Shown: piece after piece, positions 5,161 to 30,875 of the stretch
Layout: each line of letters starts with the position of its first letter
How positions within the stretch are numbered: position 1 is the stretch's first letter
From: Tsuneonella mangrovi
Lineage (GTDB): Bacteria; Pseudomonadota; Alphaproteobacteria; Sphingomonadales; Sphingomonadaceae
DNA: 64,000 nucleotides
Direction: 5' to 3'
Assembly: GCF_002269345.1 (NCBI RefSeq)
Contig: NZ_CP022889.1
Location: 62,001 to 126,000, forward strand
Translations under genes and position numbers: made by a program
The notes under the pieces: generated by a model
Databases searched by the model: none
The model's input: only the letters and a program-made list of their open reading frames with translations
What the model was told of the DNA's origin: nothing

Positions 5161-6597
5161 ATGGCTGATCAATACGACGTAATCGTTCTCGGCTCCGGAC
5201 CCGGCGGCTATGTCGCGGCGATCCGCTGCGCGCAGCTGGGGCTGAAGACCGCCATCGTCGAACGCGAGAACCTCGGCGGCATCTGCCTCAACTGGGGTTG
5301 CATCCCGACCAAGGCGCTGCTGCGCTCGGCGGAGATCCTGCACTACGCGCAGCACGCCAAGGACTATGGCCTCAAGATTGCAGGTAGCATCGAAGCGGAC
5401 CTGGAGGCGGTGGTGAAGCGCAGCCGCGGCGTCGCCAAGCAGCTCAACCAGGGCGTCACGCACCTGATGAAGAAGAACAAGATTGCGGTGCACATGGGCG
5501 AAGGCACGCTGACCGGTCCGACCAGCCTCACCGTGAAGGGTGACCCCGGATCAAGGTCCGGGGCAGGAAAGGGCGAGGAGAAGCTCACCGCCAAGCATAT
5601 CATCGTTGCCACCGGTGCGCGTGCGCGCGACCTGCCGTTCGCGCCGGCCGACGGCAAGCGCGTGTGGACCTATCGCCATGCGATGACCCCGCCCGAAATG
5701 CCCAAGAAGCTGCTGGTGATCGGCAGCGGCGCGATCGGGATTGAATTCGCCAGCTTCTATAACGATATGGGCTGCGAAGTGACCGTGGTCGAAATGCTCG
5801 ACCGGATCGTGCCGGTGGAAGATGTCGACGTCTCCGCATTCCTCGAAAAGAGCCTCACCAAGCAGGGCATGACAATCATGACCGGCGCGGGCGTGGAAGA
5901 CATCAAGGTCTCCGCCAGCGGCGTGAAGGCGAAGATCAAGGACAAGGCGGGCAAAGTCTCCGAGAGCGAATTCAGCCACTGCATCGTCGCGATCGGCATC
6001 GTCCCGAACACCGAGAATGTCGGGCTGGAAAAGCTGGTCGAAATGGACCGCGGGTTTATCCAGATCGACCCGTACGGCCGCACCAGGTCCAAGGGGCTGT
6101 GGGCGATCGGCGATTGCACCCCGGGGCCGTGGCTGGCGCACAAGGCGAGCCACGAGGGTGTCACAACAGCCGAGGCGATCGCCAAGGAGCTGGGCAACAA
6201 GGATGTCCACCCGCACCCGCTCGACCGAAACAACATCCCGGGCTGCACCTATTGCCACCCGCAGATCGCCAGTGTGGGCATGACCGAGGCCAAGGCCAAG
6301 GAAGCCGGGTACACCGTGAAGGCGGGCACGTTCCCGTTCATCGGCAATGGCAAGGCGATCGCACTGGGAGAAGCGGAAGGCTTCACCAAGACGGTGTTCG
6401 ACGCGAAGACCGGCGAACTGCTCGGCGCGCACATGGTCGGCGCGGAAGTGACCGAAATGATCCAGGGCTTCGTCGTTGGCAAGACGCTGGAGACGACCGA
6501 GGCGGAACTGATGCAGACGGTGTTCCCGCACCCGACGATCAGCGAATCGATGCACGAAAGTGTGCTCGCATCCTACGGACGCGCACTGCACATCTGA
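5161..6597 (+). CDS. lpdA: Dihydrolipoyl dehydrogenase (E3)
   Basis: A 478-residue FAD flavoprotein that reoxidises the dihydrolipoyl groups of the 2-oxoacid dehydrogenase complexes with NAD+. The FAD motif GSGPGGY is at residues 11-17 and the redox pair is C42/C47 in GGICLNWGCIPTKALL. The C-terminal HPHPTISE supplies the catalytic His/Glu. An RBS (AAGGA) precedes the ATG. Residues about 127-142 (GDPGSRSGAGKGEE) look inserted relative to normal E3. They are encoded by a palindrome at 5544-5563 and account for the roughly 12 extra residues over the usual length near 465. Confidence 0.96.
   Translation: MADQYDVIVLGSGPGGYVAAIRCAQLGLKTAIVERENLGGICLNWGCIPTKALLRSAEILHYAQHAKDYGLKIAGSIEADLEAVVKRSRGVAKQLNQGVTHLMKKNKIAVHMGEGTLTGPTSLTVKGDPGSRSGAGKGEEKLTAKHIIVATGARARDLPFAPADGKRVWTYRHAMTPPEMPKKLLVIGSGAIGIEFASFYNDMGCEVTVVEMLDRIVPVEDVDVSAFLEKSLTKQGMTIMTGAGVEDIKVSASGVKAKIKDKAGKVSESEFSHCIVAIGIVPNTENVGLEKLVEMDRGFIQIDPYGRTRSKGLWAIGDCTPGPWLAHKASHEGVTTAEAIAKELGNKDVHPHPLDRNNIPGCTYCHPQIASVGMTEAKAKEAGYTVKAGTFPFIGNGKAIALGEAEGFTKTVFDAKTGELLGAHMVGAEVTEMIQGFVVGKTLETTEAELMQTVFPHPTISESMHESVLASYGRALHI
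5544..5563. repeat. In-frame palindromic repeat element inside lpdA (family A)
   Basis: The sequence CCCCGGATCAAGGTCCGGGG is a 7-bp perfect stem with a 6-base loop. Its reverse complement, CCCCGGACCTTGATCCGGGG, is nearly the same as the core CCCCGGGCTTGACCCGGGG found at both ends of the GIY-YIG cassette at 21886 and 22271. It lies within lpdA without breaking the frame, in a surface-loop region between TLTGPTSLTVK and LTAKHIIVATGA. Confidence 0.75.
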
Positions 6598-19707: not shown

Positions 19708-21729
19708 TTGGAGCCAGTAGTTCCTTCGACGGATGTGAAGCTCGTAGTTCGGAAGACAATCGTTCGATTGGTTCTTTCGAGCTTTCTAATGCTCTTTGTC
19801 GAACTCGCGCTAATTCGATGGCTCGGCGCGAACATCGTTCACCTTTCCTACTTTTCAAATTTTGTTCTTCTGGGTTCGTTTCTCGGCGTTGGGGCCGGAT
19901 TCCTGATCAGCCGAAAGGAGTGGTCGATTTGGCCATTCTCACTTCCAATCTTGTCGATCCTTGTGATCTCAGTTTTGCTGTTCCCCGTTTCGATCGAACG
20001 GGCCGGCTCCGATGTTATCTACTTTACTTCGCTTGAGGTCAGTGGGCCGCCCGCGTGGCTCGCTCTGCCGGTTGTATTCGTGCTGGTCGCGACCATCATT
20101 GCTGGCCCTGCCGAAATAGTCGGGCGTTGCTTCGGCGAGCTGCCACCACTCTCTGCCTATCGATATGATTTGATCGGCTCCCTTCTTGGCATCGGCGCGT
20201 TCACCGCGCTCAGCTTCCTGCAAGCGCCGTCGATTGCATGGGGCTTGATTGCCATCGTTTTCTATCAAGTCCTGGCAACGAAGGGCCGACGAGTTGTGAA
20301 CCTCGCATGGAGCGCGTTTCTTGCCATTGCCCTATGCGTTGAAACATTCACCCCCGGTGTGAGTTGGTCGCCCTACTACAAGATAACCACCTATCGCTCT
20401 GACCGCGATGCTCCGGGTTTTCTGCTCATAAAGGCGAATGGCGTTCCGCACCAATTGATGGCGCCCGCTAGCTGGAAGGTAAAACAGGGAGAGCGCATCT
20501 ACGAAGCTCCATATCTACGTTTGCCGACCAACAAACTGGATGACGTTCTGATTATTGGCGCTGGTTCAGGATCAGACGTTGCGATCGCTCTTCAGGAACA
20601 TGCGAAGCGTATTGATGCAGTCGATATTGATCCTCGAATTTTGCAGATCGGTACCAATCAGAATATTGACCGCCCATACGCCAACCCCAACGTCACCAAG
20701 CACGTCAATGACGGTCGCGCCTTTTTGGAAAGTACTAACCGCAAATATGACCTGATCCTATTTGCACTGCCGGACTCGCTTACACTCGTCAGTGGCGCCT
20801 CTCAGATCCGACTTGAATCGTTCCTATTCACGAAACAGGCAATCGAGTCCGTTCGGCGACATCTGAAGCCTGATGGCGCTTTTGCGATGTACAACTACTA
20901 TCGCGAAACGTGGCTCATAGATCGCCTGGCTGGCACTGTTGCCAAAGTCTTCGGCCATTCCCCGTGCGTCGACACATTTGCAGGCGCACAAGCGACGATA
21001 AGTGTTGCAATGAAGCAATCCGCGCAGCGGTGTCAGTTGTCATGGAACCCAGCTTCGACAGGGTCGATTATCGAGCCAGCGACGGATGACGCACCTTTCC
21101 TTTATTTTCGAGGTGATGATTTTCCTCCGCTCTATACCATAACCCTTCTCGGCATCCTGATTACGTCGCTCGTCGTCGTACGTTCACTAGGCGGTCCTCT
21201 GAAGGGGATGCGTCCTTATGCCGACCTGTTCTTCATGGGGGCAGCGTTTCTCCTCCTTGAGACTAAGAATATTGCGACCTTTGCCTTGCTCTTTGGCACG
21301 ACTTGGTTCGTCAATGCATTGGTCTTCACAGGTGTCTTGCTAATCGTGCTTGCCGCTGTGGAGACAACGAGGCGGCTAAGAACCCCGCCACTTCCCGTTG
21401 TTTATGCCGCGATCGCCGCTTCATTGGCTACGGCGTGGATAATCCACCCGGAATGGTTGCTACCATTGCCATTCTTACCGCGCCTTGCTGCGGCTACCCT
21501 GCTAGCATTCATGCCAATCTACTTGGCCAACGTCGCTTTCTCGAAGCGCTTCCAGGAAACTGCAGATTCTCAATCGGCCTTTGCCATCAACCTGCTAGGA
21601 ACGATCGTGGGAGGGTGTCTTGAATATTGCGCTTTGTATTTGGGTTACAACAACTTGTTGATCGTAACCGGACTACTTTATCTGATCGCGTTTCTGTTGG
21701 TTCCTCGCCAAATGGCAAAAGTTGCCTGA
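19708..21729 (+). CDS. Membrane-bound spermidine synthase-like protein
   Basis: About 673 residues in three parts. An N-terminal block has six or so membrane helices (FVELALIRWLGANIVHLSYF is typical of polytopic aminopropyltransferase-like proteins). A central Rossmann methyltransferase/spermidine-synthase domain carries VLIIGAGSGSDV, DAVDIDPRIL and YDLILFALPDS. A C-terminal membrane block follows. The start is uncertain: TTG 19708 gives the longest product, and an internal ATG at the MLFVELALIRW segment is an alternative. Catalytic acids of true polyamine synthases are not all evident, so the substrate is unknown. G+C and codon choice are well below neighbours, which suggests transfer. Confidence 0.8.
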   Translation: MEPVVPSTDVKLVVRKTIVRLVLSSFLMLFVELALIRWLGANIVHLSYFSNFVLLGSFLGVGAGFLISRKEWSIWPFSLPILSILVISVLLFPVSIERAGSDVIYFTSLEVSGPPAWLALPVVFVLVATIIAGPAEIVGRCFGELPPLSAYRYDLIGSLLGIGAFTALSFLQAPSIAWGLIAIVFYQVLATKGRRVVNLAWSAFLAIALCVETFTPGVSWSPYYKITTYRSDRDAPGFLLIKANGVPHQLMAPASWKVKQGERIYEAPYLRLPTNKLDDVLIIGAGSGSDVAIALQEHAKRIDAVDIDPRILQIGTNQNIDRPYANPNVTKHVNDGRAFLESTNRKYDLILFALPDSLTLVSGASQIRLESFLFTKQAIESVRRHLKPDGAFAMYNYYRETWLIDRLAGTVAKVFGHSPCVDTFAGAQATISVAMKQSAQRCQLSWNPASTGSIIEPATDDAPFLYFRGDDFPPLYTITLLGILITSLVVVRSLGGPLKGMRPYADLFFMGAAFLLLETKNIATFALLFGTTWFVNALVFTGVLLIVLAAVETTRRLRTPPLPVVYAAIAASLATAWIIHPEWLLPLPFLPRLAAATLLAFMPIYLANVAFSKRFQETADSQSAFAINLLGTIVGGCLEYCALYLGYNNLLIVTGLLYLIAFLLVPRQMAKVA

Positions 21730-21784
21730 CTTCAGACCACAGGCGCTATTGCTTTCAGATATCGCATACCACCCTAGACGATTT

Positions 21785-21803
21785 GTCCGCTTTCCACCCC
21801 AAA
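21785..21803. repeat. Family B repeat, middle copy (first half)
   Basis: GTCCGCTTTCCACCCCAAA matches 22286-22304 at 17 of 19 positions in direct orientation. Together the two bracket the hairpin, the second half-repeat and the GIY-YIG cassette. Confidence 0.6.
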
Positions 21804-21804
21804 C

Positions 21805-21832
21805 GTGACCTAGCTGACAGTCAGCTCGTCAC
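21805..21832. terminator. Strong stem-loop after the spermidine-synthase-like gene
   Basis: GTGAC-CT-AGCTGA, loop CAG, TCAGCT-C-GTCAC pairs over 11 base pairs with a small internal bulge. It lies 76 bases after the stop codon. There is no T-tract, so it may be a processing or repeat-associated hairpin rather than an intrinsic terminator. Confidence 0.4.
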
Positions 21833-21851
21833 CTAAAAGCGGCTGGTCAGG

Positions 21852-21873
21852 TAACGACCCGGAAGCGGACGTT
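21852..21873. repeat. Family B repeat, middle copy (second half)
   Basis: TAACGACCCGGAAGCGGACG begins this 22-bp segment, which matches 19389-19410 at 19 of 22 positions in direct orientation. It sits 13 bases before the left inverted repeat of the GIY-YIG cassette. Confidence 0.6.
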
Positions 21874-21885
21874 AGCCTTTTACAA

Positions 21886-21916
21886 CGTCGCCCCGGGCTT
21901 GACCCGGGGTCCCGCT
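21886..21916. repeat. Left 31-bp inverted repeat of the GIY-YIG cassette (family A)
   Basis: A 31-base segment with core CCCCGGGCTTGACCCGGGG, itself a hairpin. It equals the reverse complement of 22241-22271 at 30 of 31 positions; the only difference is the central T/C. The nuclease start codon lies 18 bases inside it. Confidence 0.9.
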
Positions 21917-21934
21917 TCCCTTTTTCCTGGATTC

Positions 21935-22234
21935 ATGGACAGGGAAAATCGGGGTGGCTGGGTCTACATCATGACCGACCGCTATCGCGGCACATTGTAT
22001 GTCGGCGTGACGTCCGACCTTGCGTCTCGCATTCACCAACACCGGACCGGGACCGGCTCCGATTTTTGCGCGCGCTACCGTCTGACGCGACTGGTGTGGG
22101 CCGAGTTCGGCGAATCCATCACCGAGTGCATCACGCACGAAAAGCGCATCAAGAGATGGCACAGGGCGTGGAAGATCGAGATGATCGAACGCGCCAATCC
22201 TTCGTGGGACGACTTGTTCGATAGCCTTGTCTGA
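21935..22234 (+). CDS. Single-domain GIY-YIG endonuclease
   Basis: A 99-residue protein made only of a GIY-YIG catalytic domain. The motif reads VYI-x10-LYVG (GIY-YIG equivalent), with the catalytic Arg region SDLASRIHQHR and the metal-binding Glu in CITHEKRIKRWHRAWK. ATG 21935 is preferred because it gives the usual start MDRENRGGWVYIM; the frame extends to 21899 into the left repeat. No DNA-binding domain is attached. It sits 18 bases after and 6 bases before inverted copies of a 31-bp palindromic element. Similar small GIY-YIG proteins are common in alphaproteobacteria; their role is not established. Confidence 0.9.
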   Translation: MDRENRGGWVYIMTDRYRGTLYVGVTSDLASRIHQHRTGTGSDFCARYRLTRLVWAEFGESITECITHEKRIKRWHRAWKIEMIERANPSWDDLFDSLV

Positions 22235-22240
22235 AGGAAC

Positions 22241-22271
22241 AGCGGGACCCCGGGTCGAGCCCGGGGCGACG
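22241..22271. repeat. Right 31-bp inverted repeat of the GIY-YIG cassette (family A)
   Basis: Reverse complement of 21886-21916 with a single mismatch; internal palindrome CCCCGGGTCGAGCCCGGGG. It begins six bases after the nuclease stop codon and could also act as its terminator hairpin. Confidence 0.9.
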
Positions 22272-22285
22272 AAAGTGGCAGGCTA

Positions 22286-22304
22286 GTCCGCCTTCCGCCC
22301 CAAA
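22286..22304. repeat. Family B repeat, right copy
   Basis: GTCCGCCTTCCGCCCCAAA, 17 of 19 identical to 21785-21803, same orientation. It lies 14 bases before the pth stop and marks the right edge of the accessory insertion. Confidence 0.55.
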
Positions 22305-22318
22305 GCAGAATTCCTCGC

Positions 22319-22924
22319 CTAATCCTGCTGCCTCAGTGCCACGTCGCTCATGAAGCGCGCATCGTCGCCTTTCGCCAGCTGATCCGCCTCCGCGCCGATC
22401 GCACCGAGCATATCGGCAAGGTCGTCCATTTCCGCCTTGGCGTAGTTTCCAAGGACGTAGCCAGTCACCCGGTCCTTGTGCCCGGGATGGCCAATGCCGA
22501 TCCGCACGCGGCGAAAGGCTCCCCTGAGCCCTGTCGAAGGGTCGGGGCCCCCAAGTCCGGCAACGTGCTGATCGATGCTCCGCAGCCCGTTGTGCCCCGC
22601 CAGCCCGCCGCCAGTGCGGACCTTGACCTTGAACGGAGCGAGGTCGAGCTCGTCGTGGAACACCGTCAACGCGTCGGGCTCCAGCTTGTAGAACCGCATT
22701 GCTTCGCTGACCGATCGGCCGCTTTCGTTCATGTAGGTCGCAGGCTTTAGCAGCAGGATCTTCTCCCCGCCGATGCGGCCTTCCTGCACCCAGCCGGAGA
22801 ACTTCTTCTGCACCGGGCCGAACCCGTGCATATCGGCGATCACATCCACGGCCATGAAGCCGACGTTGTGCCGGTGCATCGCGTATTCCGGTCCGGGATT
22901 GCCGAGGCCTGTCCAGATCTGCAT
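22319..22924 (-). CDS. pth: Peptidyl-tRNA hydrolase with an extra internal loop
   Basis: A 201-residue Pth that frees tRNA from stalled peptidyl-tRNA. Conserved blocks are WTGLGNPGPEYAMHRHNVGF (catalytic His19 in RHN), KPATYMNESGRS, FHDELDL, the GGGLAGHNGLRS region and FRRVRIGIGHPG. Between SIDQH and FRRVRIG about 14 residues (AGLGGPDPSTGLRGA) are added. They correspond to a palindromic repeat at 22521-22541 and explain why the protein is longer than the usual near-190 residues. It is downstream of rplY, with an intrinsic terminator-like hairpin between them. Confidence 0.95.
   Translation of the reverse strand: MQIWTGLGNPGPEYAMHRHNVGFMAVDVIADMHGFGPVQKKFSGWVQEGRIGGEKILLLKPATYMNESGRSVSEAMRFYKLEPDALTVFHDELDLAPFKVKVRTGGGLAGHNGLRSIDQHVAGLGGPDPSTGLRGAFRRVRIGIGHPGHKDRVTGYVLGNYAKAEMDDLADMLGAIGAEADQLAKGDDARFMSDVALRQQD
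22521..22541. repeat. In-frame palindromic repeat element inside pth (family C)
   Basis: The core CCCTGAGCCCTGTCGAAGGG (22522-22541) resembles the dispersed element CCCTGAGCCTGTCGAAGGG that I recall as frequent in sphingomonad and related genomes. It encodes part of the extra Pth loop without disrupting the frame. Confidence 0.6.
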
Positions 22925-28463: not shown

Positions 28464-30875
28464 ATGAGCGACTTCCTCCTTGAGCTGCGCTGCGAGGAAA
28501 TCCCTGCGCGGATGCAGGCCGGTGCCCGCGCCGACCTGGAGCGGCTGTTCCGCGCCGAGATGGCCGCAGCAGGTCTGGCGGTCGAGAACATACGCGTATG
28601 GTCTACCCCACGGCGACTTGCGCTGGTGGTCTACGACGATCTGCCCGAAACGACCGAAGCGGTCAGCGAAGAGGCCAAGGGGCCACCCGAAGGCGCGCCC
28701 GATGCCGCGATCGACGGGTTCTGCCGCAAGAACGGCGTCACCCGCGACCAGCTGACCTTGCGCGACGTGAAAGGCCGAAACACCTATTTCGCGGTGATCG
28801 AAAAGCCGGGTAGGGCGGTGAAGGACGTCCTCGCCGAGTCGATCCCGGCGATTATCCGCGCATTCCCGTGGCCCAAGTCGATGCGTTGGGGTGCAGCCTC
28901 GATCAGCACCGAGAGCTTGCGCTGGGTGCGCCCGCTTTCGGGAATCGTGGCGCTGTTCAATGGCGAAGTGGTCGCGTGCGAAATCGACGGTATTCGCTCG
29001 GGTCGCGAAACACTGGGGCACCGGTTCCACCATACGGGCCCGATCGCGATTGAAAGCGCGCACACCTATGCGTCGCAGCTGCTCGATGCGCGGGTGATCG
29101 TCGAACACACCAAGCGCGAAGCTCTGATCCGTCAGGGCGCGGCTGAAGCTGCCTCCGCCGCCGGGCTGACGCTGGTCGCGGACGAGGGGCTGGTGATCGA
29201 GAACGCCGGGCTGACCGAATACCCTGTCCCGCTGCTGGGCCGGTTCGACGAGGCGTTCCTCGACGTGTCGCCCGAGGTCATCCAGCTTACCGCGCGGGTG
29301 AACCAGAAGTATTTCGTGTGCGAGGGCGCGGACGGCAAGCTCGCCAACGCGTTCGTGTGCACCGCCAATATCGAGGCGGCGGACGGCGGCGCGGCGATTG
29401 TCGACGGCAACCGAAAGGTCCTCGCCGCGCGGCTTTCCGATGCGCGGTTCTTTTGGGAACTCGACCAGAAGACCATGCTCGAAGAGCACGCGAAGAAGCT
29501 GGAGCGGATCACCTTCCACGAGAAGCTCGGCACCGTCGCCGACAAGGTTGATCGGGTGGCGAAGCTGGCGAGGTGGCTGGTCGAATCCGATATCGTCGTC
29601 CCAGCGAAAGCTGGGACCGCTGTCGGCTCGGACAAGCAACCGATCCCAGCTTCCGCTGGGATGACGAAAGAGGAACTGGCCGACCTCGCCGAACAGGCAG
29701 CGCGCCTCGCCAAGGCGGACCTCGTCACCGAGATGGTCGGCGAATTCCCCGAGCTGCAGGGCGTGATGGGCGGCTACTACGCCCGCGCCGAGGGGCTGCC
29801 CGATGCCGTCGCCGACGCGATCCGCGATCACTACAAGCCGGTCGGGCAGGGCGACGAAGTGCCCACCGCGCCGGTGACGGTGGCGGTGTCGCTGGCGGAC
29901 AAGCTAGATACGCTTTCCGCCTTCTATTTTGCGGGCGAAAAGCCAACCGGCTCTAAAGATCCCTTCGCTCTCCGCAGGGCAGCGCTGGGCGTCATTAGAC
30001 TGACTAGCGAAAACGCATTGCGACTTCCTCTGCAGGCCCTGCTGGAAGCCGCAATCGGCCCGCTGAGCATTTCCGCTGCGCGTGCGGCTTTCAGCGGGCA
30101 ACCGCTCCTCGACATTCTTTCGAAAGGTTTTCCGTCAGCGATGGCCCTTGGTCGCGCCAAAGATGACGGAACACACGACATTTCGATTGATGGTGTGAAC
30201 TTGGAAGGTGTTCCGTCCAAATTTGTTCAACCATTGGTCGACTGGATAGAGCGCTCGTCAAACAATGCGAGTTGGCGGGAGGAACTCCTCGACTTCTTCG
30301 CCGACCGCCTGAAAGTCCAGCAGCGCGAAGCGGGTGTCCGCCACGACCTGATCGACGCGGTGTTCGCGCTTGGTGGCGAGGACGATCTCGTTCGCCTGCT
30401 CGCCCGCGTCCACGCGTTGCAGGCATTCATGGAAACCGAAGACGGCGCGAACCTGCTCGCGGGCTACAAGCGCGCGGCCAATATCCTCAAGAAGGAAGGG
30501 TGGGAGAACGCGACCGACCGGATCGCCCGCACCGGCGACGAGGACCCGATGGAGAACGTCGACGATCCGCAGATGCGCGCGATCTATGCAGCGCGGGCCG
30601 AGAATGCGCTTTCTTACACACCCGAACCTGCCGAAAAGGCGCTGATCGACGCGCTCGATGCCGCCGAACCGAAGGCGGCTGCGGCGATCGAGGCAGAAGA
30701 CTTCGCCGCCGCGATGGCCGCGCTCGCATCCTTGCGCGCACCGATCGACCGGTTCTTCGATGAAGTGACGGTAAACGCCGATGAAGAAAACAAGCGCCAA
30801 AGCCGCCTCGCGCTCCTTGCGCGGTTCCGTGCTGCAGTGCACAACGTGGCCGACTTCTCCCGCATCGAGGGGTAG
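28464..30875 (+). CDS. glyS: Glycyl-tRNA synthetase beta subunit with inserted segments
   Basis: An 803-residue GlyS, longer than most (about 690-750). ATG 28464 gives MSDFLLELRCEEIPARM, the canonical start; the frame extends to 28281 through the upstream repeat. The B3/B4-like, HD and C-terminal DALR-type regions are recognisable (LRWVRPLSGIVALFNGEVV, GYYARAEGLPDAVADAI, LDFFADRLKVQQREAGVRHD). Two oddities are present. Residues about 377-402 are translated from a paired palindromic element. Residues about 493-608 are encoded by a lower-G+C patch and include roughly 30-40 residues I would not expect. Confidence 0.94.
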   Translation: MSDFLLELRCEEIPARMQAGARADLERLFRAEMAAAGLAVENIRVWSTPRRLALVVYDDLPETTEAVSEEAKGPPEGAPDAAIDGFCRKNGVTRDQLTLRDVKGRNTYFAVIEKPGRAVKDVLAESIPAIIRAFPWPKSMRWGAASISTESLRWVRPLSGIVALFNGEVVACEIDGIRSGRETLGHRFHHTGPIAIESAHTYASQLLDARVIVEHTKREALIRQGAAEAASAAGLTLVADEGLVIENAGLTEYPVPLLGRFDEAFLDVSPEVIQLTARVNQKYFVCEGADGKLANAFVCTANIEAADGGAAIVDGNRKVLAARLSDARFFWELDQKTMLEEHAKKLERITFHEKLGTVADKVDRVAKLARWLVESDIVVPAKAGTAVGSDKQPIPASAGMTKEELADLAEQAARLAKADLVTEMVGEFPELQGVMGGYYARAEGLPDAVADAIRDHYKPVGQGDEVPTAPVTVAVSLADKLDTLSAFYFAGEKPTGSKDPFALRRAALGVIRLTSENALRLPLQALLEAAIGPLSISAARAAFSGQPLLDILSKGFPSAMALGRAKDDGTHDISIDGVNLEGVPSKFVQPLVDWIERSSNNASWREELLDFFADRLKVQQREAGVRHDLIDAVFALGGEDDLVRLLARVHALQAFMETEDGANLLAGYKRAANILKKEGWENATDRIARTGDEDPMENVDDPQMRAIYAARAENALSYTPEPAEKALIDALDAAEPKAAAAIEAEDFAAAMAALASLRAPIDRFFDEVTVNADEENKRQSRLALLARFRAAVHNVADFSRIEG
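29593..29668. repeat. In-frame paired palindromic element inside glyS (family E)
   Basis: Two hairpins in inverted orientation. GTCCCAGC-GAAA-GCTGGGAC (29598-29617) and ATCCCAGC-TTCC-GCTGGGAT (29643-29662) each have an 8-bp stem with a 4-base loop. The outer ends TCGTCGTCCC and GGGATGACGA are also complementary, with one mismatch, to each other. It is translated as IVVPAKAG...PIPASAGMT within GlyS without a frameshift. The same kind of element is familiar from intergenic regions of Caulobacter and Erythrobacter relatives. Confidence 0.85.

Follow-up and report, generated by a model that had tools for sequence, protein, structure and literature searches.

A small GIY-YIG nuclease gene between inverted CGTC-tagged palindromes in Tsuneonella mangrovi: a candidate minimal REPtron-like mobile unit

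The window analysed here is a stretch of 64,000 nucleotides from the 2.70-Mb genome of Tsuneonella mangrovi (G000:C1:62001-126000). Within it lies a unit of 386 bp in which a short nuclease gene is framed by two inverted palindromes; two further palindromic features are found inside the coding genes lpdA and glyS. All coordinates refer to the window unless stated otherwise.

5544-5563, no strand assigned: single related palindrome CCCCGGATCAAGGTCCGGGG, in frame inside lpdA (5161-6597)
21886-21916, + strand: left CGTC-tagged palindrome, tag outward, 7-bp stem, 5-nt loop, inner tail TCCC; class GGGCTTGACCC
21935-22234, + strand: GIY-YIG nuclease gene, assigned by PF01541, alignments, the AlphaFold2 model and the nearest sequences and folds
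22241-22271, - strand: right CGTC-tagged palindrome, an inverted copy of the left one (30/31)
29598-29662, no strand assigned: inverted pair of CCAGCG-class palindromes, REPIN-like, in frame inside glyS

The two 31-nt arms are inverted, match at 30 of 31 positions (97% complementary) and stand 324 nt apart. They enclose a gene of 99 codons plus stop with margins of 18 and 6 bases; a longer in-frame ORF, from a TTG at 21899, is also listed. Each arm starts with the CGTC tag and has seven perfect stem pairs, then a G opposite a T, and a loop of 5 nt. The first-pass annotation had described near-perfect 31-bp inverted ends, each itself a hairpin, around nothing but a 99-residue GIY-YIG gene; re-measurement gave the same figures, and the coordinates and the Pfam match agree with that description. 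Allowing up to 3 mismatches, the 19-nt arm core occurs in the window only in the two arms (two matches in 0 of 100 shuffles) and 15 times in the whole genome. Six of those 15 matches pair at all seven stem positions, namely the two arms and four others, so the own genome, with only four further full copies at up to 3 mismatches, does not hold this palindrome in high copy number. Outside the palindromes, GCGGAC on the left and GTCCGC on the right were noticed (21860-21885 and 22272-22300), as also in loci L018, L133 and L139. We discarded this outer pair as a target signal, as it shows a weak excess, 8 (left) and 10 (right) of 102 units versus 116 of 3136 background windows.

The window protein matches the Pfam family GIY-YIG (PF01541) with 51.1 bits (cut-off 22.6), residues Y10, Y21, G23, R31, H35, E68 and N87 (numbering of window:21938-22231) are conserved or nearly so in alignments, and its AlphaFold2 model is confident (mean pLDDT 93.2). 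Family match, conserved residues and fold place it in the GIY-YIG superfamily. The closest solved sequence is UPF0213 BH0048 (1zg2, profile E 9e-16), and a Foldseek search with the model returned 1zg2 first (E 0.003) and then Slx1, the partner of Slx4, with no match below E 0.001. The small GIY-YIG proteins of UPF0213 presumably correspond to COG2827. By sequence and fold its nearest relatives are UPF0213 and eukaryotic Slx1; unlike the case here, no link to palindromes was found reported for either. No match in NCBIfam or PHROGs names the subfamily, and no transposase family of Pfam or NCBIfam matches the protein. According to PDB titles Slx1 acts on branched DNA, which would suit a hairpin or cruciform as the substrate of our nuclease.

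The same genome contains four GIY-YIG matches. One, in a 662-codon reading frame taken to be uvrC, has no palindromic arms. A second small gene (G000:C1:2630611-2630886), whose product shares 62% identity with the window protein, lies between 32-nt inverted arms (94%) of another palindrome, ATCCCAGCGAAAGCTGGGAT. For the third (L016/L036) one search returned no inverted pair and another a weak pair of some other repeat, with a score of 16. The arm family had been said to occur inside lpdA as well: a related palindrome does lie there, at a point where the best PDB homologue has 7 residues fewer, but it falls outside the 3-mismatch core search. The pair inside glyS had been overlooked. It coincides with about 25 extra residues relative to the best PDB homologue, the segment 29592-29668 folds as one long hairpin (z -8.2), and its palindrome class is that of the second, 2630611-2630886 nuclease.

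Association between arms and nuclease genes was scored as the best ungapped inverted repeat within 250 bp on either side (match +1, mismatch -2), with a threshold of at least 16. Among the best 80 of 576 confirmed homologues, 62 have arms and 18 have none at this threshold, compared with 1 of 480 equally sized random placements within those loci and 9 of 435 neighbouring ORFs (odds ratio 163, p 2e-53). A further 78 loci gave 63 with arms, near-copies included, and the first set dereplicated at 70% identity gave 40 of 50. The best matches of a phylum-wide search have arms in 18 of 25 cases, a count that leaves out two loci at contig edges (L249, L265). Forty regions were picked by hand, by kinship and score, before their flanks were seen: those from other classes of the phylum have arms in 6 of 20 loci and a mixed set in 15 of 20. 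All loci outside Alphaproteobacteria within the phylum amount to 9 of 26 (6/20 and 3/6), so the link is strongest in Alphaproteobacteria. From a plasmid collection 33 records matched and seven of nine scored loci have arms: two Sphingobium, one Sinorhizobium, one Novosphingobium, two Shinella and one Neisseria; two homologues on Rhizobium plasmids (R. tumorigenes and Rhizobium sp. K1/93) have none. The Neisseria gonorrhoeae record is chromosome-sized (L193), and its gene sits among six ATTCCC...GGGAAT hairpins within 300 bp, which by their consensus we take to be dRS3. The first-pass annotation had asked whether such genes lie near palindromes beyond chance and held that bare homologues, or equal density at other genes, would speak for coincidence; the counts above answer the question positively and run against coincidence. 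As for the control ORFs, the nine with strong flanking inverted repeats could belong to other mobile units.

The shape of the palindromes was compared across a set of 158 loci, which leaves out L144 (contig edge), the split gene L032/L034 and the fragmentary copies of G080, G031 and G120 (L175-L180, L183, L184). In 122 of them the score was at least 16 and the gene had no stop and at least 70 aa; seven without a clear hairpin were dropped. The 115 oriented arms contain 68 distinct cores, and most share one frame, cGTC-A-stem-loop-stem-T-CC. Arms of one locus match each other with a median score of 28.5, versus 7.0 between different loci (at least 16 in 39 of 310). Stems of 8-9 bp are found in many relatives, and the tail is CCC in the window arms and CCA, CCC, CTC or CGC in relatives. 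Once the arms are oriented by their tagged side, 89 of 115 have CGTC within the 7 nt preceding the stem, and 97 of 115 have GTC directly at the stem or shifted by one base. Left arms taken without that orientation step have the tag outward in 89, inward in 8 and unclear in 18 of 115. Across the 158 loci the nearest one-sidedly tagged hairpin points outward rather than inward in 107 versus 21 cases upstream and 106 versus 26 downstream. When overlapping hairpins are counted separately, 424 of 487 strong hairpins close to the genes have GTC next to them; for those in the rest of these loci the figure is 206 of 769.

Palindrome and nuclease also vary together. On a tree of 103 nucleases (12 more loci fell in no class) the seven palindrome classes require 20 changes, against a mean of 61.8 after shuffling and no value as low in 200 shuffles; owing to the shortness of the protein, 51 of 100 inner branches are drawn open, and tests of this kind are inflated by near-copies. 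Where a genome has at least two diverged flanked nucleases, the nearest foreign nuclease has the same palindrome class in 27 of 38 loci and a different one in 11, whereas within one genome diverged nucleases agree in class in 4 of 52 pairs, or 8 of 104 when both orders are compared. Foreign pairs at large share it in 1006 of 5187 (19%). The palindrome thus goes mainly with the enzyme and not with the host. Copy numbers of CCAGCGNANGCTGG in 119 genomes of the family follow the same line: the 17 genomes with the cognate clade have a median of 24, the 68 with other relatives one of 5 and the 34 with none one of 4, and at least ten copies are present in 15 of 17, 21 of 68 and 3 of 34, respectively. 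The reversed pattern, as a control, has medians of 4, 2 and 2.5; the clade threshold of 3e-43 was set after the table had been seen. High palindrome copy numbers are found in several relatives (e.g., G096, G062, G123). Genome G021 has 130 matches to the CCAGCG palindrome pattern without the cognate clade, and ten other such genomes have at least 20; the nuclease may have been lost there, or another enzyme may be responsible. Taken as a whole, association and cognate pairing of nuclease and palindrome are almost certainly real and not a coincidence.

Some relatives have multiplied the unit. Genome G080 carries nine copies in unrelated flanks. Five are full-length, about 460 bp and 94-97% identical. 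A 47-bp deletion is common to two others, and a larger one, with the same right end, to the remaining two; defective copies thus seem to have spread in the manner of MITEs. The block shared by the copies runs some 50 bp to the left and 25 bp to the right beyond the palindromes, hence the moved segment would not be exactly arm to arm. By eye, no target duplication was seen in the G080 copies, and the search for an empty site of one of them yielded just an 87-bp match in its only genus relative, which was not usable. In G031 two units on different contigs are 99.8% identical over 458 bp, both with broken reading frames. Genome G096 contains nine gene-less inverted palindrome pairs of 91-173 bp, mostly about 160, whose outer and inner ends are mostly those of its nuclease unit L143; the pairs were chosen because two pattern matches lay close together, so the figure of nine of 20 gives no frequency. 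A REPIN consists of two REPs in inverted orientation, separated by a spacer and dispersed in the genome, and this arrangement is seen in the nine G096 pairs and at 29598-29662 of the window. By their ends, we regard the G096 pairs as REPIN-like derivatives of the unit. Such units are very probably mobile in relatives.

Palindromes of this shape were described as CGTC REPs by Di Nocera, De Gregorio and Rocco in 2013 (PMC3733652). In the parts of that survey drawn on here, these repeats have a CGTC tag (or TGTC or CCTC), a stem of 8-9, a loop of 4-5 and mostly a CCA tail; they form inverted dimers, occur mainly in Alphaproteobacteria (all orders), some inside genes, and include Neisseria dRS3 (CGTC-1 of Neisseriae) and Rickettsia RPE-4 and RPE-6. 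Its Table 1 enters "-" under association to TPAse genes, the text says that they "seem lacking a dedicated transposase", and the authors' guess is that CGTC REPtrons may have disappeared early. The palindromes of our unit likewise have an unpaired CGTC at one end, a stem near 8 bp (seven perfect pairs in the window arms), a loop of 4-5 and a short tail, form inverted dimers, belong mostly to Alphaproteobacteria and occur also inside genes. The window arms differ in their tail (CCC, not the commonest CCA) and in their first pair (G-T, not A-T). In tag and general shape the palindromes fit the CGTC REP superfamily. Unlike the repeats in the published passages, which report no transposase gene, ours have a GIY-YIG gene between them.

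Closer in organization are REPtrons, i.e., RAYT/TnpA-REP genes with GTAG REPs. As far as the portions cited go (PMC3116915, PMC8266576), these too combine one small nuclease gene with inverted, tetranucleotide-tagged palindromes, show class-specific pairing and have gene-less inverted pairs dispersed as REPINs. The unit differs from them in having a GIY-YIG and not a HUH Y1 enzyme, and CGTC instead of GTAG; it can also be present as numerous near-identical copies, while the cited part of PMC3116915 describes RAYTs as single-copy genes. Since the gene belongs to PF01541 and not to PF01797, and the tag is CGTC and not GTAG, the unit works like a REPtron but is not one, and since it carries a gene it is not a REPIN. 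The layout had been likened from the start to REPs around RAYT transposases with another nuclease fold, and the comparison holds on both points. Inverted arms are also a mark of insertion sequences; no transposase family matches the protein of the unit. Mobile genes with the GIY-YIG fold include homing endonucleases and the Penelope elements that carry it, but the 386-bp unit shows no sign of an intron, intein or reverse transcriptase. Among the matches listed from the open-licence PMC literature, without preprints, none was seen to link GIY-YIG genes to REPs, in keeping with the first-pass annotation, which knew of no established link.

We therefore hypothesize, with a probability of roughly 0.7, that the 386 bp form a minimal mobile unit of REPtron-like kind: its GIY-YIG nuclease, standing in for RAYT, would mobilise both itself and pairs of CGTC palindromes. 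Many relatives are framed likewise, each gene lineage mostly by its own palindrome, and units have multiplied in some genomes, which makes the nuclease a good candidate for the agent that spreads a common class of bacterial palindromes. A minimal self-mobilising or palindrome-dispersing unit had been proposed at the outset, and the multiplied units and empty sites of relatives lend support to it. The enzyme would recognise the CGTC-tagged hairpin of its own class, either single-stranded at the replication fork or extruded as a cruciform, much as Slx1 acts on branched DNA. It would nick at both ends, close to the tag or the loop, and host repair would copy or move to a new place whatever lies between two outward-tagged palindromes. 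The same enzyme may act in trans on shortened units and on gene-less palindrome pairs, which would explain REPIN-like CGTC dimers. The exact chemistry may be transposition or a homing-like copying.

Sites with and without the unit bear on this last point. On Sphingobium Tom plasmids, the stretch upstream of fnrL is covered in full by seven records, of which four lack the unit. Where TYG46, MM7A, TYG73 and MM15 carry it, TYG64 and TYG74 have a solo palindrome with CGTCA on both sides, corresponding to the outer halves of the left and right arms put together; the sequence of TYG72 and TYG65 is a different one there. Between gltA and lpxB, S. meliloti Ak57 has a decayed unit and an intact gene, and Sinorhizobium K101 a solo palindrome together with a second, imperfect one. 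None of three Shinella sites that lack the unit (L236-L238) has such a palindrome, and at the acd/mmsA site L350 has a 72-bp spacer without any. For the flanks of the copy on N. aromaticivorans pNL2, the plasmid set contains no other record. Palindromes can hence travel with the unit, and the solo ones may be targets or scars. If they are targets, the nuclease would cut a solo symmetric palindrome (CGTCA...TGACG) and repair would copy the unit into its loop, the palindrome being a landing site and not a transposon end. GIY-YIG is a homing-endonuclease fold, and the solo palindromes of TYG64, TYG74 and Sinorhizobium K101 are what such a process would use. However, slippage between two self-complementary arms would leave the same solo scar, the other empty sites (L350, L236-L238, TYG72) have no palindrome, and the paralogous G080 copies lie in unrelated flanks, unlike homing into one allele. 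We consider a homing-type process rather unlikely.

The preferred reading, a unit that moves by its own nuclease, must also accommodate signs of long residence. At the acd/mmsA site the unit is present in 8 of the 30 species retrieved from one genus (where 61 genomes matched; nine of the 30 loci stop short of mmsA, and L342 has no readable interval), and it can thus be inherited for long without moving. Six nuclease pairs from this orthologous site have dN/dS of 0.08-0.15 and a seventh 0.31; six further diverged pairs have 0.10-0.17 and six pairs with few changes 0.07-0.76, with two pairs saturated and the pairs overlapping, thus not independent. The diverged nucleases, as the comparison shows, are under purifying selection. 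Such selection and a position shared across species, together with UPF0213 and Slx1 as the nearest relatives in sequence and fold, would also suit a resident enzyme of genome maintenance or regulation that trims cognate cruciforms, the palindromes spreading by other means and the unit not being selfish. Against this stand the multicopy units and the patchy presence of the gene, which is matched in 9 of 11 genus genomes, some copies having stops or being split. Moreover, the unit was not found within 520 bases of pth in 16 relatives (16 of 29), and we find such a host function improbable. As the 520 bases beyond pth differ in all 16, they offer no precise pre-insertion site for the window copy; the comparison of occupied and empty sites proposed in the first-pass annotation succeeded in relatives and gave no clean site for this copy. 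At acd/mmsA, the nuclease tends to be bordered on each side by a complete REPIN of two palindromes, often dissimilar, and the stems vary from species to species although the site is orthologous (L333, L335, L338, L343, L344, L346, L348, L359).

Could the nuclease gene be mere cargo, with RAYT or another transposase spreading the CGTC palindromes? The 2013 survey, in the part used here, suggests that a wide range of transposases may mobilise CGTC elements (PMC3733652), and some palindrome-rich genomes lack the cognate clade. However, the Y1 transposase PF01797, the one transposase family searched for, is absent in 11 of 12 carrier genomes, G000 included, the exception being a split match in G100. 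RAYT acting in trans was rejected on this ground, and the palindrome class follows the nuclease clade, so we give hitchhiking little credence. A role of the palindromes as transcription terminators, or as hairpins in the mRNA of an ordinary gene, is most improbable: many REPs are transcribed and may act as RNA elements according to the part of PMC3733652 cited, but no terminator-like or promoter site was found in 21700-22400, and the hairpins stand on both sides, matched and mostly tagged outward, an arrangement that control genes rarely have.

If the GIY-YIG nuclease does mobilise its palindromes, the pairing provides a concrete candidate enzyme for each palindrome class. The system would be an independent parallel to that of RAYT and REPINs, built on an unrelated nuclease, and the unit, at under 0.5 kb, possibly one of the smallest self-mobile coding units. 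Many lone genes annotated as "GIY-YIG nuclease family protein" would find an explanation as well. A wider proposal, which we put forward tentatively and at slightly less than even odds, is that the dedicated mobilisers so far missing for CGTC REPs are small GIY-YIG nucleases and that a broader GIY-YIG class, including a CCGTTCGTnCTGAGCnTGTCGAAGGAC-flanked UPF0213-like subfamily, is the driver of many among the commonest dispersed palindromes in bacteria, such as dRS3, the GIY-YIG enzyme being the only protein of this element class.

Two minor observations concern other palindromes. In the second GIY-YIG subfamily, UPF0213-like and with a motif like YILRCADGS, inverted palindromes of the CCGTTCGTnCTGAGCnTGTCGAAGGAC or CTCGACTTCGCTCG type, which we assume to be very common dispersed repeats, flank 8 of 13 loci (L294, L296, L297, L299, L300, L302, L303, L305); L036 represents this subfamily in the own genome. 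Longer palindromes with the same GTCAT frame, e.g., GTCATTGCGAGGAGCGAAGCGACGAAGCAATCC or GTCATCCTGAATAGCGAGGC...GTTCAGGATC, occur in the units L261, L270, L306 and L287.
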